A stretch of DNA of 39,529 nt, taken from the IMG/VR virus record IMGVR_UViG_3300042327_001884, positions 1 through 39,529 of that record; one strand, 5' to 3'. The notes beneath the pieces were generated by a model. That model did not search any database. It saw only the letters and a program-made list of their open reading frames with translations, and was not told the DNA's origin. The position numbers and the translations under genes were made by a program. Below are positions 5,288 through 33,786 of the stretch, in pieces; positions within the stretch are counted from its first letter, which is position 1, and every line of letters starts with the position of its first letter. The stretch comes from a virus.

Positions 5288-5539
5288 ATGAAAACAATAT
5301 CTGTTACACAAGCAAGACAAGATTTATATAATTTGTTAGATGACACCATTCAAAATAGTGAACCCATACAAATTAAAGGCAAACGTGGTAGTGCAGTTTT
5401 AATCTCTTTAAGTGATTGGAACTCTTTGGAAGAAACTTATTATTTAAAATCTATTCCGCTTGTAGAAGAAGAAATTTTAGAAGGAATGAAAACACCGATT
5501 GAGGATTGTGTGGAGGACATAGGTTGGGATATCAAATAA
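5288..5539 (+). CDS. yefM: YefM/Phd-type antitoxin
   Basis: This 83-aa antitoxin neutralises the toxin encoded next and probably represses their shared promoter. The N-terminus MKTISVTQARQDLYNLLDD and 'EPIQIKGKRGSAVLISLSDW' match the DNA-binding Phd/YefM fold. The acidic C-terminal tail (LVEEEILEGMKTPIEDCVED) is the part that normally threads around the toxin. Start ATG 5288 follows GAGGTGATGAA. It overlaps the toxin start by 16 bases. Length and order (antitoxin first) are typical of the family. Confidence 0.9.
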   Translation: MKTISVTQARQDLYNLLDDTIQNSEPIQIKGKRGSAVLISLSDWNSLEETYYLKSIPLVEEEILEGMKTPIEDCVEDIGWDIK

Positions 5540-5787
5540 TTTTTACAAAACAAGCTAAGAAAGATTCCGAAAAAATAGAAAAATCAAATTTGAAATTCAA
5601 AACAATTGAATTATTAAAAGTAATCGCAAAAAGTCCGTTCCAAAACCCTCCTCCCTATGAAAAATTAATCGGAAGCTTACACGGTGCATATTCAAGAAGA
5701 ATAAATATTCAACACCGATTAGTCTATGAGGTTTTTGAAGCGGAAATGAAAGTGAAAGTATTAAAAATGTGGACTCATTATGAATAA
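5524..5787 (+). CDS. yoeB: YoeB/Txe-type mRNA-cleaving toxin
   Basis: The product is 87 aa from TTG 5524, placed 7 bases after GGAGG (5512-5516); an in-frame TTG at 5506 is less well placed. YoeB binds the ribosome and cuts mRNA in the A site when its antitoxin is degraded. The active-site set is visible: E46 (YEKL), R65 in 'NIQHRLVYEV', and the terminal H85-Y86. 'GAYSRRINIQHRLVYEV' is the family signature. With an intact catalytic set it is probably functional. Likely roles are stabilising the prophage or excluding other phages. Confidence 0.9.
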   Translation: MGYQIIFTKQAKKDSEKIEKSNLKFKTIELLKVIAKSPFQNPPPYEKLIGSLHGAYSRRINIQHRLVYEVFEAEMKVKVLKMWTHYE

Positions 5788-21144: not shown

Positions 21145-21549
21145 ATGTTAAGAGATATATCAAGTAACAATAATATTGTTTTTGACTGCAAGTACCATGT
21201 TGTTTTTTGCCCAAAATATCGCAAGAAGGTTCTTGTTGACCCTGTTGATAGTAAACTCAAAATATTGTTTTTGCAAAAAGCTACTGAGTTGCATTGTGAA
21301 ATCGTGGAAATGGAGATCATGTCAGACCATGTTCATCTTCTCATTAAGTGTGATCCACAATTTGGAATACACAAAGTCATAAAACATCTAAAGGGATATA
21401 CATCAAGAATTTTACGTGAAGAATTTCGGCATCTAAAAAGTAGGCTCCCTTCGCTTTGGACTAATTCGTACTTTGTTGCATCTGTTGGAACTGTTCAGCT
21501 AGATGTAATTAAAAAGTACATTGAAAACCAAAAAGAAAGGGGTGATTGA
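21145..21549 (+). CDS. tnpA: IS200-type HUH (Y1) transposase
   Basis: This 134-aa enzyme cuts and rejoins single-stranded IS ends. The HUH motif is H62-V-H64 in 'SDHVHLL'. The nucleophilic tyrosine is Y125 in 'VIKKYIENQ'. The N-terminal '[16 protein letters not shown]' is the family signature. Full length with all catalytic residues indicates an active enzyme. It overlaps or abuts tnpB within 2 bases, so the pair is probably co-translated. Confidence 0.95.
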
Positions 21550-21550
21550 T

Positions 21551-22636
21551 TTGCACAAAGCCTATAAGTTCCGTATTTACCCAAACCAAGCGCAAACATT
21601 GTTGATTGAAAAAACATTTGGGTGTACTCGTTTTGTGTTCAATCGCTTCCTCGCTAAACGTATAGAAATGTACCAAGATGAAGGAAAAACGTTGAATTAC
21701 AATGCGTGTTCTGCACTTTTGCCTATGTTGAAGAAAGATTTGATATGGCTAAAAGAAATTGATTCAACATCTCTACAATCCGCATTAAAAGATTTAGATG
21801 CATCTTACAAAAAGTTCTTCAAAGAAAAGAAAGGATATCCCAAGTTTAAGAGCAAGAAGAATCCTAAGCAATCCTACACAAGCAGAGTGAATTTGAAAAT
21901 ATTCGACAATCACATTAAACTTCCTAAGCTTGGACTTGTGAAATTTGCTAAATCTAGAGAAGTCGAAGGTAGAATCCTGTCTGCTACAGTAAGCAAGAAT
22001 CCAAGCGGTAAATACTTTGTGTCGATGATGTGTGAATTAGATATTCAACCACTTCCTTTCAATGAATCTCAAATTGGTGTTGATTTAGGTATCAAAGACT
22101 TTGCGACTCTATCAAATGATGAAAAAATCGCTAATCCCAAATACACGTACAAGTACCAACGCAAACTCGCTAAGCTACAACGTAGTTTGTCACGCAAGAA
22201 AAAAGGTGGCTCAAACTATCGCAAGAACAAAATCAAAGTAGCAAGGTTACATGAGAAGATTACAAATTGCCGTAAAGACTTCCTACACAAGCTATCAACG
22301 AAGCTAATTCGTGAAAATCAAACGATTTGCTTAGAAGATTTGCAAGTGCAAAACATGATTAAGAATCACAAGTTAGCTAGAAGTATAGCTGATGTATCGT
22401 GGAGTGAATTTCGCCGACAGTTGGAATATAAAGCGAATTGGTATCAAAGAACGATATCTATCGTGAGTAAGACATATGCATCAAGTCAGTTGTGTTCGGT
22501 TTGTGGCTACCAAAACAAAGAAGTGAAAAACTTAAAAGTACGCAAATGGATATGTCCACAATGCGAAACCGAACATGATAGAGACATCAACGCATCAAGA
22601 AATATCTTACAAGAAGGATTACACTTGGTTTCTTAG
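21551..22636 (+). CDS. tnpB: TnpB RNA-guided nuclease
   Basis: The product is 361 aa from TTG 21551, behind AAAGGGGTG; an in-frame GTG at 21542 is possible. The RuvC triad is complete: D178 in '[10 protein letters not shown]', E262 in '[10 protein letters not shown]' and D345 in '[10 protein letters not shown]'. A zinc ribbon with CSVCGYQ and CPQC lies between the last two. The N-terminal '[12 protein letters not shown]' is typical. TnpB, with an RNA made from the IS right end, cuts sites lacking the IS and so promotes its retention. Length is normal and no break is seen. Confidence 0.95.
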
Positions 22637-27816: not shown

Positions 27817-29196
27817 TTACCTCCCAAAATTAATGTATGAATCGTCAATTTTTAACCCTAAAAAAGCGTCTGCCTTTGGCTTCTCGCTATTAAAGTTGTA
27901 TTTCGGTACTACGGTTTCGTTTTTAGTCGATGGTGCAAATCGCATCGAACAGAAGTAGCGAATGCTGTCTGCTCCGTGGGTCAGCTCGTGAGGTTCGTTG
28001 GCTACATCATTTGGTCTTTTGTCGTCATGTTGCAAGAGTGGTAAGTCTCGTATGAGATTGGTGCAGGTTCGCCATATTTTCATCTTTGATGTGCGTGTTT
28101 CTTTTCCGCTTTGCTCGTGCTTGGCAGTATACACTCTTAACCATTCTTTGACGTTGTACCATCCTTGCACTCGATCATTGTTTGACTTGACCAAATACAC
28201 GCCATTGTCCATAAACACCTCTGATGCACTCTTGCCTGTGTCTTGCCTTCTGTTCCATAAGTCTGGTGGTGCATAGGTAATCTTGATTTCCTCGCTTGTC
28301 ATCGCTTTAATACGCCTTACAGCTTCGCTAATGATGAGGTTCGGCTCATATAGTTCCTTATACACGAAAGCATTGCCTTGCATATCGACTGCGATCCAAT
28401 AACACGCCAACATATCTAATCCATAGTCAATCGTGCGATATCTATCCCAATGTGTGGGTATCTCAAACGGCTCGACAACATGGATATCTCGGTCGAACTC
28501 CTCAAAGTACTGCCCTTCAAACGCATCCCAATCGCCATATAACATCGCTCGTTTACGTGCTTCGGGAAGGTTCTCTAGGTTTTCAACGTATTCGGGATTG
28601 TTCTCCATCAGATATTTGTTCTCGTACACCGTGGATTTGATAAAGTTGTAGTTTTCTTCCTTCTCACTCGCAATGTAACGCTTATCAATAAATAACCGCT
28701 TCATCCACGTATGTCCGACTCCACCAGGATTGCATGTGAAGTACATCCTCGGTGCAAACTTCTCCTTCATATGTCCACTCGAACGATTCGACTCTGTTAG
28801 CGTCTTGAACTGAAACTCTGTGAATTGTGTCGATTCCTCAAGGAATATCACATCATATGCTTGTCCTTGATACTGCAACACGTCTGCTTCTGTCATACAG
28901 TACCCTAACAGGATTCTTGCTCCATTCGGGAACCTAAACTCTTTATTCTCTGCAGAGAAGTGTGCAATGTCTTTTAACAAGCTTTGTAAGGGCAGAACGT
29001 GGTTTTCTCTCAACTCTTTTAACGACCTACGTAACAAAAGGATTTGTATGCCCTCGTATCGACTCGCTAGAAGCACCGACTTCGTTCTAGCCGCCCAACT
29101 CTTGCCCCCACCTCTAGCACCGCCATATGCCGTATATCTCGCTTTAGATTTGAAGAACTCTATCTGCCTAGGATATGGGCTTATTTTGATTTGCAT
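27817..29196 (-). CDS. terL: Terminase large subunit
   Basis: The product is 459 aa from ATG 29196, behind GGGGGA; further upstream starts would add 53 poorly composed residues. The ATPase has Walker A at 25-33 (GGARGGGKS) and Walker B at 116-122 (VIFLEES), followed by 'CNPGG' (155-159). The nuclease domain begins near D257 in 'RTIDYGLDM'. It drives packaging of DNA into the procapsid through the portal. It is the first gene of the late operon. The small subunit is unusually far away (7742-8116). Confidence 0.93.
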   Translation of the reverse strand: MQIKISPYPRQIEFFKSKARYTAYGGARGGGKSWAARTKSVLLASRYEGIQILLLRRSLKELRENHVLPLQSLLKDIAHFSAENKEFRFPNGARILLGYCMTEADVLQYQGQAYDVIFLEESTQFTEFQFKTLTESNRSSGHMKEKFAPRMYFTCNPGGVGHTWMKRLFIDKRYIASEKEENYNFIKSTVYENKYLMENNPEYVENLENLPEARKRAMLYGDWDAFEGQYFEEFDRDIHVVEPFEIPTHWDRYRTIDYGLDMLACYWIAVDMQGNAFVYKELYEPNLIISEAVRRIKAMTSEEIKITYAPPDLWNRRQDTGKSASEVFMDNGVYLVKSNNDRVQGWYNVKEWLRVYTAKHEQSGKETRTSKMKIWRTCTNLIRDLPLLQHDDKRPNDVANEPHELTHGADSIRYFCSMRFAPSTKNETVVPKYNFNSEKPKADAFLGLKIDDSYINFGR

Positions 29197-29596
29197 ATGT
29201 CCCCCGATTTTGTTGAAAAATTTTTGGAAGGAAATGGTAGTCCGCTGAAAATGAAAAATTCTCGATAACGCATTGAATAATACACCCCCCGCCCCCCATT
29301 TGGGTTGACTACCCCATGCCACTCCAACTGTTACCATAATCACTAAAATATCCACTATTCGTCGACTTGTATCGGCATACAGTTACACTTTCAGCAATAT
29401 GTTAGGGTAAATCGCAAGAAACCCTGTAACCATGCGGGTTTGAGCATCATAGTTGTAGACGGGATTTAGACATGGGATATTGATTTCACGGAAACGACGA
29501 CGAAAAAAGGTTGATAAAAGTTGATAACCGTACAGCTCTTTGAAAACTGAATAGTAACGAATGAGATTAGTAATTCATATGAAAGGAAGTGAGAAT
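29197..29596. other. Non-coding divergent control region upstream of terL
   Basis: The region separates the - strand late operon from the + strand accessory block, so it should hold the late promoter and possibly the packaging site. A C-tract CACCCCCCGCCCCCC (G-rich on the late-operon strand) lies at about 29282-29296. AAACCC...GGGTTT forms an inverted repeat near 29420-29443. Two direct TTGATAA words lie at 29511 and 29521. No near-consensus promoter stands out, which would suit an activator-dependent late promoter. Confidence 0.5.
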
Positions 29597-29755
29597 ATGA
29601 AAAAAGTTAAAACATTAAAACAATTCGTTATAAAGACGGACGGCGTGCAATTCTATCTTATCCATAAAGATGAATTATGTTATGGAAAACATGCTGAGCC
29701 TGAATGGATAAGCGACACACTAGAAGAATGTATAGAATGGTCACTATCATATTAA
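29597..29755 (+). CDS. Small hypothetical accessory protein
   Basis: The product is 52 aa from ATG 29597 behind AAAGGAAGTGAG. It begins MKKVKTLKQFVIKTDG and ends 'SDTLEECIEWSLSY'. The composition suggests a compact alpha/beta fold, and no family is recognised. It opens the + strand accessory block and is followed by a leader-type hairpin before the next gene. Proteins of this kind are common in antirestriction or mobile-element leading regions. Confidence 0.55.
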   Translation: MKKVKTLKQFVIKTDGVQFYLIHKDELCYGKHAEPEWISDTLEECIEWSLSY

Positions 29756-29768
29756 AACAATAAAAAAA

Positions 29769-29799
29769 TAGCTATCAAAGGTGACAACTTTGGTAGCTA
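29769..29799 (+). ncRNA. Structured leader hairpin 1
   Basis: TAGCTATCAAAG pairs over 12 positions with CTTTGGTAGCTA around a 7-base loop. The sequence that follows, CCTAATAAAACTA..AAGGA, leads into the ribosome site of the gene at 29833. A second copy before the next gene keeps the pairing despite changed bases, so an RNA structure is under selection. Confidence 0.7.
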
Positions 29800-29832
29800 C
29801 CTAATAAAACTAAAAAGGATGGATATATAAGA

Positions 29833-30087
29833 ATGAAAAGAATGTTACATGCATTACGTCAATCTGAAATCGTAAAAAAAGAATTAGAAAAGCGACGAAA
29901 AAACCTAAAATCCAGTGATAGTGATATTTTTACAATAACTTTAGAATTTATCATGTTGTATAGAGTAGATTCCCATACACCAGACGACTACATGAAAATA
30001 GTATCACAAACTGACATGTACAATAAGCACGGCAACGAATATTCTGAATTGCTTGAAATCTTGTTCGAAAGATATGCATTCGAATAA
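29833..30087 (+). CDS. Hypothetical helical accessory protein
   Basis: This 84-aa protein starts at ATG 29833 behind AAGGATGG. It is basic at the start (HALRQSEIVKKELEKRRKNL), then acidic and helical (DYMKIVSQTDMYNKHGNEYS). No family is recognised. Both its leader and the leader of the next gene contain the same hairpin, which suggests common control of this block. Confidence 0.55.
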   Translation: MKRMLHALRQSEIVKKELEKRRKNLKSSDSDIFTITLEFIMLYRVDSHTPDDYMKIVSQTDMYNKHGNEYSELLEILFERYAFE

Positions 30088-30099
30088 CGAATAAAAAAA

Positions 30100-30130
30100 T
30101 AGCTGTCAGAGCTTACGACTCTGATAGCTA
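30100..30130 (+). ncRNA. Structured leader hairpin 2
   Basis: TAGCTGTCAGAG pairs with CTCTGATAGCTA around the 7-base loop CTTACGA. Compared with copy 1, one A-T pair has become G-C, an A-T has become G-T and a T-G has become T-A, so pairing is retained. The same CCTAATAAAACTA tail follows, then the ribosome site of the ArdC-type gene. Confidence 0.7.
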
Positions 30131-30161
30131 CCTAATAAAACTATAAAGGAATGACTATATT

Positions 30162-30755
30162 ATGACAAAGAAGCAATCAACTAGCAAGGATGAATTATAC
30201 CAGCTAGTTACTGACAAGATAGTAACTAGACTACAAGAGGCAATAGACAACAAGACTAGGTTTACATGGTTGAAACCATGGAATGGAACTACTAACCTGC
30301 CCACTAGCTATTCCACAGGCAAACCTTACAGAGGCGTTAACATCCTACTTCTTGACCCTGGATACTATGCAACATTCTTACAAATCCGTGATGCAGGCGG
30401 AAAAGTTAAAAGAGGCGAAAAAGCTCATACACTTGTTTACTTCTCATTCAAAGAAGTTGAAGTTAAAGACAAGAACAATGAGGCGCAAATTGAAAGAATC
30501 CCTTTCCTTAACAAGTATCACGTATTCAACGTTGAAACTCAGTGCGAAAACGTGCCACTGAAGGAGTTTATGAATAAGAAGTATCAACTAGACGAAAACA
30601 GGCTTGATGCTTTACTTACTAGCGGTGAATTACATTGGGCTAAGCATAAGAGTTGTCACGTACCAAAAAGACAATGCTTGATTGACTTGAAACAAAAATA
30701 TGAAACAGTATTCCTTGCAGTGTGTAACAAAGAATCATATTTCTTTTGGAAGTGA
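30162..30755 (+). CDS. ArdC-type antirestriction protein, N-terminal domain only
   Basis: This 197-aa protein matches the N-terminal ssDNA-binding domain of ArdC: 'LYQLVTDKIVTRLQEA', 'WLKPWNG', 'YSTGKPYRGVNILLLDP', 'DAGGKVKRGEKAHTLVYF' and 'PFLNKYHVFNVETQCENVP'. Full ArdC adds a zinc metallopeptidase domain with an HExxH motif, which is missing here. The last 45 residues (HWAKHKSCHVPKRQCLIDLK onward) are unrelated to it as far as I can see. ArdC-type proteins shield incoming DNA from restriction, so an early role at infection is plausible. The truncated form may be a stand-alone ssDNA binder. Confidence 0.78.
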   Translation: MTKKQSTSKDELYQLVTDKIVTRLQEAIDNKTRFTWLKPWNGTTNLPTSYSTGKPYRGVNILLLDPGYYATFLQIRDAGGKVKRGEKAHTLVYFSFKEVEVKDKNNEAQIERIPFLNKYHVFNVETQCENVPLKEFMNKKYQLDENRLDALLTSGELHWAKHKSCHVPKRQCLIDLKQKYETVFLAVCNKESYFFWK

Positions 30756-30777: not shown

Positions 30778-30853
30778 TTGAAAGGAGGTGAGTTAAATAT
30801 TGTAATTTTATAAATAATTGTAATTAATGACTATATCATGAAGGAGATTGAAA

Positions 30854-32475: not shown

Positions 32476-32503
32476 GAGTAGGTCCTCCCCCTACTCTTTT
32501 TTA
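32476..32503. terminator. Terminator between convergent genes
   Basis: AGAGTAGG-...-CCTACTCT is followed by TTTTTTATTTT. It lies between the + strand gene ending at 32471 and the - strand surface-protein gene ending at 32491, and can serve both. Confidence 0.8.
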
Positions 32504-33786
32504 TTTTTCTTTTCGCTCGTACTTAACCAAAGCAATACCACTAGCAACAAAAGAATAACTAAAATTAAAATATCTATCCAACATATCCCATCTCCCGTAT
32601 CGGGAAGTGTATTTGGTGATTGTGTTGGTGTGTCGGTTGGTGTAGTAGTTGGTATTGGCGTTTCAGTTGGAGTATTTGTTGGTTCCTCGGTTGGTTCCTC
32701 GGTCGGTGTTGGATCAGGTGTGTCTGTAGGTGCTTCTGTAGGTAACTCGGTTGGTACAATTGTCGGTGTTGGTGTCAAAGATGGTGTAGGTGATATCGTT
32801 GGCGACGGAGTTGGTGTAGGAACAATTGTAGGTGTCGATGATGGTGTAGCTGTAGGTGATGGATTTGGATCTGTGATGACTATTGTGATTTCTTTCGTGA
32901 GCATCCCCACATTATTAAAAGCAAGTACCAAAAATGTATAGCTACCTTCTTGGGTCGGTGTACCTGTTAACGTACCTGTGACAGTGTCAAAAGTCAGCCC
33001 TGCAGGTAGTGTGCCTGTAATCATATATTGGATAGATGTGCCATTTGCTAAAACCCCATCCGAGTAAGCTTCACCGAGTACCCCATCAACCAATGTATCG
33101 TCAACAAAAGTTGGAGTTTCCGTTGGTGTTTCGGTTGGTGTTTCGGTTGGTGTTTCCGTTGGCGTTTCACTTGGTGTAGGTGTTGGTGTTTCTGTAGGAG
33201 TCGGTGTAGGTGTTTCGCTTGGTGTTGGCGATGGAGTCGGTGTTTCGCTCGGCGAAGGTATAGGCGTTTCAGTTGGTGTAGGTGTAGGAGTCTCTGTTGG
33301 AGTAGGTGATGGTGTTTCACTTGGTGTAGGCGTTGGTGTAGGTGTTTCGCTTGGTGTAGGCGTCGGCGTTTCTGTAGGCGTTGGTTCAGGTGTTGGTGTT
33401 GGTGATGGCGATGGCGATGGTGATGGAGTCGGAGTTGGTGTAGGTGCTTCCGCAATAAAAATTCTGTAATCATTATAATAAGTAGGTAATGCACCACCTG
33501 TAATTTCAAGTTTGAATAAATATGTCCCTGTTATTGTCGGTGTGCCTTGAATGACTCCAAATTTATCAACAGACAGTCCTGTTGGCATTGTTCCCGAGTC
33601 AAAATATACGTCATAACCCTTTACATCACGTAATTCAACTAAATAATTCACACCAACTTCACCGTTTGGCAAAGCGATAGGATCAGTTACTGCGTTTACT
33701 GTGATGATTTTTGATGAAGCACTAATTAACAAAACCGCACAAATCAAAAATAATAACTTCTTTCTCAATCTACTTCTGACTATCAT
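32491..33786 (-). CDS. Sortase-anchored (LPDTG) surface protein with Ig-like domains and Thr/Pro repeats
   Basis: The product is 431 aa from ATG 33786 behind AAAGGGAG. Order: signal peptide (1-32, [17 protein letters not shown]); putative Ig-like domain (about 33-112, with '[20 protein letters not shown]'); Thr/Pro/Ser/Glu repeat linker (115-222); second Ig-like domain (about 225-305, '[20 protein letters not shown]'); second repeat linker; LPDTG (394-398); membrane segment; and the positive tail KKNKKE. These are all the parts needed for sortase attachment to the wall. Phage virions do not need such a signal, so the protein is probably made by the lysogen. It may mediate adhesion, receptor masking or exclusion. 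The linker repeats may vary in length. Confidence 0.88.

Follow-up and report, generated by a model that had tools for sequence, protein, structure and literature searches.

The sequence under study, hereafter the window, is one IMG/VR virus record (IMGVR_UViG_3300042327_001884) of 39,529 nt and, judged from its gene content, belongs to a temperate phage. The late genes run leftward, from the gene for the terminase large subunit (27817-29214, minus strand), which is the first of the late operon, to about 6.5 kb. From about 29.6 kb a rightward early/accessory block encodes two small orphan ORFs, an ArdC N-terminal-domain protein, a DUF3846 protein and others. The first ORF (52 aa, 29597-29755, plus strand) opens the block and the second (84 aa, 29833-30087, plus strand) follows it. 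Neither has a Pfam match, and a pattern search of IMG/VR gave no relative of the 84-aa ORF. The third gene (30162-30755, plus strand) encodes a protein of 197 aa that matches PF08401 (E=1.9e-22, residues 11-122) and PHROG 7245. It is shorter than full ArdC, as it consists of the N-terminal domain of ssDNA-binding type and a short unrelated tail; the C-terminal metallopeptidase domain of ArdC was not detected by Pfam. A pattern search for relatives of this protein was empty, and no ArdC was found in 18 terminase-relative records. A repeat, AATGACTATATYATGA, which reads ATG ACT ATA TYA TGA, flanks the ardC-type gene on both sides (30150-30165 and 30826-30841) and is possibly a relic of a duplicated leader.

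To the right of the early block lie, all on the minus strand, a gene for an LPxTG-type surface protein with P/T-rich repeats and a signal peptide (32491-33786), which is likely a lysogenic-conversion gene, a resolvase gene (34552-33968) and a gene for a large serine recombinase (37186-35762), with an HTH gene farther right. Elsewhere, translations suggest an IS200/IS605-like pair (21145-22636, plus strand; TnpA-like, 134 aa, and TnpB-like, 371 aa), which is oriented against the late operon, and a putative YefM/YoeB-type toxin-antitoxin pair (5288-5787, plus strand) adjoining the replication genes. A boxA-like rrn antitermination motif (CTCTTTGAAAAC / TTCTTTGAAAACT) is located at 29534-29547, shortly upstream of the early block, and similar motifs occur in relatives (L038 3743, L039 3898, L064 1422, L100 638 (minus)) on the strand directed away from the terminase. 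From their sequence, these motifs suggest Nus-dependent antitermination. A terminase search of genome contigs gave no matches.

A duplicated hairpin cassette in the first two gaps of the early operon

In the first-pass annotation two hairpins had been described at 29769-29799 and 30100-30130, each with a 12-bp stem, loops of equal size and a common flank, and all of this was borne out; the loops are 7 nt long. The stop codon of the 52-aa ORF lies 13 nt ahead of hairpin 1 and that of the 84-aa ORF 12 nt ahead of hairpin 2. The direct-repeat unit, however, is larger than first described: it comprises 61 nt, spans AATAAAAAAATAGCT to AAAGGA, and is identical at 53 of 61 positions (87%) without gaps. 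These cassettes occupy the first two gaps of the rightward early operon, where each begins 3-4 nt past the stop-codon end region and ends at a Shine-Dalgarno (SD) sequence. Copy 1 (29759-29819) consists of an A-run, the hairpin, the spacer CCTAATAAAACTA and the SD AAAAAGGA at 29812-29819. At the end of copy 2 (30090-30150) is the SD AAAGGA (30145-30150) of the ardC-type gene. The placement before an ArdC-type gene proposed earlier thus holds for copy 2, whereas copy 1 precedes the 84-aa ORF, which sits between the two cassettes. Runs of at least seven A are scarce on the plus strand, with 17 in the whole 39.5 kb, and each of the two hairpins abuts one.

The differences between the copies fall mainly into the hairpins: 7 of 31 nt are changed there (four in the stem, three in the loop), whereas the flanks differ at one position of 30 (Fisher p = 0.053). 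The 20 nt of right flank that precede the SD are almost unchanged, with a single difference. Compared with dinucleotide shuffles the hairpins reach z values of -4.4 and -5.7, none of 200 shuffles being as good, and the structure is beyond chance. The stem changes are those listed initially: in one pair both partners have changed in a compensatory way (A-T to G-C), and two other pairs are half-changed by way of G.U. All four stem differences are transitions and every one preserves pairing. In simulations with four random stem changes, all 12 pairs survived in 0.6% of cases under uniform changes, in 3% with two thirds transitions and in 13% with transitions only; when at least one compensatory double change was also required, the values were 0.5%, 1.7% and 7%. 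Since all changes are transitions and random changes keep every pair at these rates, the covariation between the two copies is modest evidence. On the plus strand the RNA forms 12 of 12 pairs in either copy, whereas the minus-strand RNA forms 11 of 12, because an A.C mismatch replaces a G.U pair. The G.U placement suits the plus-strand RNA slightly better, and both half-compensated pairs (2/2) are G.U on plus and A.C on minus, which is weak evidence for the strand on which pairing is selected. Taken as an observation, the pair of paired-stem hairpins is confirmed.

Further covarying copies in related elements had been regarded as a test of the initial proposal, and none beyond the two emerged in the databases and loci covered. 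Exact and gapped patterns in IMG/VR returned chance matches inside genes alone, none of which forms the structure, and distant blastn of the cassettes against phages and plasmids gave merely fragments of 21-32 nt with E of 2-7. No copy was found in the terminase relatives or in 98 terminase-linked loci, nor by blastn against 99 loci. With a covariance model built from the two copies, only these two scored in 95 sources, namely the window plus 94 related loci, and in 23 whole records; its weak matches (best E 0.04) fold differently. No Rfam family matched the window at gathering score, and at E<=5 nothing credible appeared in 29400-30400. As far as can be seen from these searches, the cassette is private to this phage, and a covariation test has thereby lost its most promising material.

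A proposed one-way terminator on the minus strand

The lack of a T-run behind the stems had led to the view that they are not standard terminators. This is correct for the plus strand, where the tail after the stems reads CCTAATAAAACTA and no U-run is present, but it overlooks the other strand, on which TTTTTTTATT directly abuts each stem: the A7 stretches at 29762-29768 and 30093-30099 correspond to the minus-strand U-runs TTTTTTTATTGTTTT and TTTTTTTATTCG. We computed the d'Aubenton-Carafa terminator score d on every hairpin of the window. Hairpins 1 and 2 obtain d = +14.7 and +25.4 on the minus strand versus -62 and -55 on the plus strand, and both accordingly score as ordinary intrinsic terminators (d>0) in the leftward direction. 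The minus-strand hairpins have folding energies of -9.5 and -14.6 kcal/mol, and the whole 81-nt stretches z values of -2.7 and -3.7.

These scores are within the range of the other predicted terminators of the genome, which were found where expected: at the late-operon end (6379, minus, d=51.3), between duplicated late genes (23168, minus, 30.3), at the end of the early block on the plus strand (32476, 23.2), downstream of the resolvase gene (33874, minus, 19; 33819, minus, 15) and to the left of the recombinase gene (35486, minus, 18). The resolvase unit, the interval beside the recombinase gene and the late operon are thus each provided with a minus-strand terminator. The LPxTG-type gene, which is read leftward, ends 2.4 kb upstream of the cassettes on the minus strand. 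Between its end (32491) and the late operon, the whole-window scan revealed no minus-strand terminator with d>0 except the two cassettes, which are therefore the sole predicted barriers between leftward transcription from the lysogeny/moron side and the late operon. Terminators that act in the antisense direction only are found in 6 of 299 codirectional gaps of the phage group, and two of these six are the cassettes described here.

We therefore propose, with a probability of roughly 0.4, that the hairpins are duplicated asymmetric intrinsic terminators that face leftward transcription, are transparent to early transcription and insulate the late genes. The anatomy, the scores, the gene orientation and the lack of other minus-strand terminators with d>0 in the interval are direct observations, and to these we add, as inferences, leftward read-through, termination at the hairpins and an insulating purpose. 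An RNA polymerase leaving the LPxTG-type gene (33786-32491) leftward would cross the early block in antisense; its transcript would form, first at 30100 and then at 29769, a hairpin with UUUUUUUAUU directly behind it, and synthesis would stop ahead of the late operon with its terminase gene (about 29.2 kb). A rightward transcript would form the hairpin followed by CCUAAUAAAACUA, which would not cause a stop, so that the 84-aa ORF and the ardC-type gene would be read. The sites would lie in intercistronic gaps because there is no other non-coding space.

Read on the minus strand, the cassettes resemble common intrinsic terminators in having a stem-loop that directly abuts seven U and a positive d in both copies. 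They differ in their A/U-rich stem base, which contains one mismatched pair on that strand, and in that they are duplicated and placed in the gaps of an oppositely directed operon; termination is a prediction. Several findings count against the terminator reading. Both half-compensated pairs turn into A.C mismatches on the minus strand, as noted above, and the near-invariant right flank is not needed by a minus-strand terminator, although a recent duplication alone accounts for it. The close cousins L005 and L006-L009 lack such a hairpin pair. Matches resembling intrinsic terminators also arise by chance (8 observed versus 3.4 expected in 5.7 kb), and within the SSB gene (366-393) a perfect 12-bp hairpin abuts an A-run in the layout of the focal hairpins, in coding sequence, with an antisense-terminator score of d=25.7; such scores can thus arise without an obvious role.

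Three candidates examined alongside were rejected. The antisense terminator of L005 (8539-8561) is no analogue, since it sits within a small ORF. Among relatives, late-direction terminators just upstream of the terminase gene show no significant clustering (7 of 16 within 1.5 kb), and most of those phages have codirectional genes there. Finally, a tiny antisense RNA starting from a promoter-like site on the minus strand (30168-30140), which would be suitably positioned for it, was dismissed, because promoter-like sites are as frequent as in shuffled sequence and the same scan gave no counterpart for copy 1.

Alternative roles of the cassette

The main rival, which our analysis leaves as a serious if tentative possibility, takes the cassette as a processing and 5'-stabilising element on the sense strand. 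An RNase Y-type endonuclease would cut in the A-rich stretch behind the upstream stop codon; the downstream cistron would thereby gain a 5' end that the 12-bp hairpin shields from RNase J, with the AU-rich spacer CCUAAUAAAACUA leading on to the SD. A precedent is the RNase Y site of cggR-gapA in B. subtilis, where the processed product owes its stability to a hairpin and the AU tract that comes next promotes cleavage (PMC11780869). The cassette resembles the cggR-gapA and glnRA sites in being intercistronic, with A/U-rich flanks, a hairpin that starts the downstream message and, directly after it, an AU-rich tract. It differs from them in that the hairpin abuts an A-run, in that one sequence occurs twice in one operon, and in that copy 1 has no G shortly upstream, which is the strongest, albeit weak, element of the RNase Y consensus. 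The succession of A-rich stretch, hairpin, AU-rich spacer and SD is conserved where its sequence would matter, while the stem keeps pairing alone, and all 12 pairs form on the plus strand only.

The frequency of hairpins in comparable gaps argues in the same direction. When the window and its terminase relatives were surveyed with crude gene calls, 75 of 254 short codirectional gaps contained a hairpin of -9 kcal/mol or below as against 6.8 in shuffled sequence (about 11-fold), most without a sense T-run: 35 lack T-run and A-run flanks alike, a sense T-run is present in 23, an A-rich 5' flank in 14, and the two together in 3. Hairpins ahead of SDs are therefore a regular feature of this phage group. 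In addition, the cousins L006-L009 carry type II hammerhead motifs in the corresponding gaps, right before SDs, cleavage of which would yield a 5'-terminal hairpin. The stabiliser reading, however, leaves the A7 abutting both stems unexplained and suffers from the lack of further copies. A related reading as an RNase III substrate was rejected, since a 12-bp stem is probably too short for this enzyme.

Structured elements near ardC and other anti-restriction genes are known from other systems. Upstream of ardC on pLS20-family plasmids lie the establishment-gene regulatory sequences EGeRS1 and EGeRS2, of which EGeRS1 is a conserved region of 400-750 bp that immediately precedes establishment operons and contains several inverted repeats, and EGeRS2 comprises a promoter together with a Reg operator; on plasmid p576, two short inverted repeats upstream of ardC have been proposed to prolong mRNA life (PMC8708921). 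The cassettes share with EGeRS the inverted repeats upstream of ardC and of other genes (PMC8708921), but with 61 bp and one inverted repeat each they do not qualify as EGeRS1, and no promoter such as that of EGeRS2 is evident in them. Clustered hammerhead ribozymes flank phage genes including ardA (PMC3088659). As with these, a repeated structured RNA is found here in the gaps that flank small phage genes and an anti-restriction gene; the window, however, has a plain hairpin without a hammerhead core, while the cousins L006-L009 have hammerhead motifs in the corresponding gaps.

It is unlikely that the cassette is an inert linker. In that case a gap sequence, once perhaps a bidirectional terminator that has since decayed, would have come in, duplicated, together with an inserted 331-bp unit that encodes the 84-aa ORF, and would today serve only as homology for gene gain and loss. 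The copies are indeed direct repeats around one orphan ORF, no relatives turned up in the searches and the covariation is statistically modest, but the hairpins have diverged at 7 of 31 positions with all pairs kept while the flanks have hardly altered. A two-faced cassette appears less probable still: its antisense face would end an excludon-like leftward lysogenic transcript, which keeps the early block silent and, if not stopped, would activate the late genes, and its sense face would cap processed early mRNAs. The element would then be one of the interchangeable gap modules of the group, which at corresponding sites would be plain hairpins, hammerhead pairs or one-way terminators.

We consider control of translation very improbable, although the original proposal of a repeated cis-acting RNA controlling translation or processing partly survives: a repeated structured cassette does lie just upstream of the SDs, and RNA processing or stabilisation is a live rival. 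In favour of translation control, the SD can form a marginal CCU:AGG pairing of 3 bp, which would stack on the hairpin and modulate initiation, alone or with a bound protein. It occurs in both MFE folds, with a CCT right behind the stem in each copy, and relatives do have SD-sequestering leaders before an adaptor gene, but the pairing is worth only about 0.2 kcal/mol and is missing from the centroid, and the SD is otherwise free. Least probable of all is a DNA-level palindromic operator bound by a dimeric repressor, for despite a 12-bp inverted repeat in two copies close to gene starts, 4 of 24 arm and 3 of 7 spacer positions differ, asymmetric changes included, and an operator would conserve sequence rather than pairing.

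Structured gap modules in related phages

The closest records with a corresponding block are L006-L009, whose terminase is 72% identical. Hairpins of the window type were not found in these records; their divergent early block contains two perfect type II hammerhead motifs (L007 8822-8871 and 8313-8362, minus strand; also in L006, L008 and L009), each shortly upstream of an SD, with changes that preserve all three stems. The hammerhead call is based on the fact that both copies have a complete core (CUGANGA, GAAA, UH) as well as three stems, and the motifs score below the Rfam thresholds; a descriptor with the CUGANGA and GAAA core and three stems matched L006-L009 and found nothing in the window. 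In another pair of relatives, a common early-gap cassette (L062 637-773 and L065 784-902, minus-strand genes; 73% identical) is located in a divergent early operon and comprises an A-run, a hairpin without a sense U-run and a conserved leader. On the late-direction strand these hairpins score as terminators (d=27 and 22), and the pair appears to follow the same one-way design as the window cassettes. A structured gap module is hence common in the phage group, and its kind differs from phage to phage.

A separate conserved leader precedes one structural gene in about 15 relatives (L065 11314-11386, L072, L073, L080, L081, L084, L085, L091, L093 and L100, and as a variant L060, L064, L067, L068 and L077). 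It contains the hairpin ATCAAGAG-CTCTTGAT, the 3' arm of which can alternatively pair with the SD around a second hairpin. This second hairpin covaries strongly, with 74 of 77 pair cells in the group-1 stem and double changes in five pairs. The gene behind the leader is probably a head-tail adaptor, a name suggested by inference, and the leader has the appearance of a switch of translation or of an element that couples it.

Most likely, the cassette of the window is an ordinary intrinsic terminator whose placement is unusual, being duplicated, antisense and one-way; failing this, it would be an element that stabilises mRNA from within an intercistronic gap. The analysis of the minus strand corrects a reading of the hairpins that considered a single strand. 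If the one-way reading is true, a small phage whose early operon lies between two opposed transcription units insulates these without extra space. The survey further suggests that the gaps of this group are packed with structured RNA, i.e. hairpins, hammerhead pairs and, ahead of one structural gene, a leader that covaries, which would make these phages a compact test bed for setting the levels of single genes within long operons.
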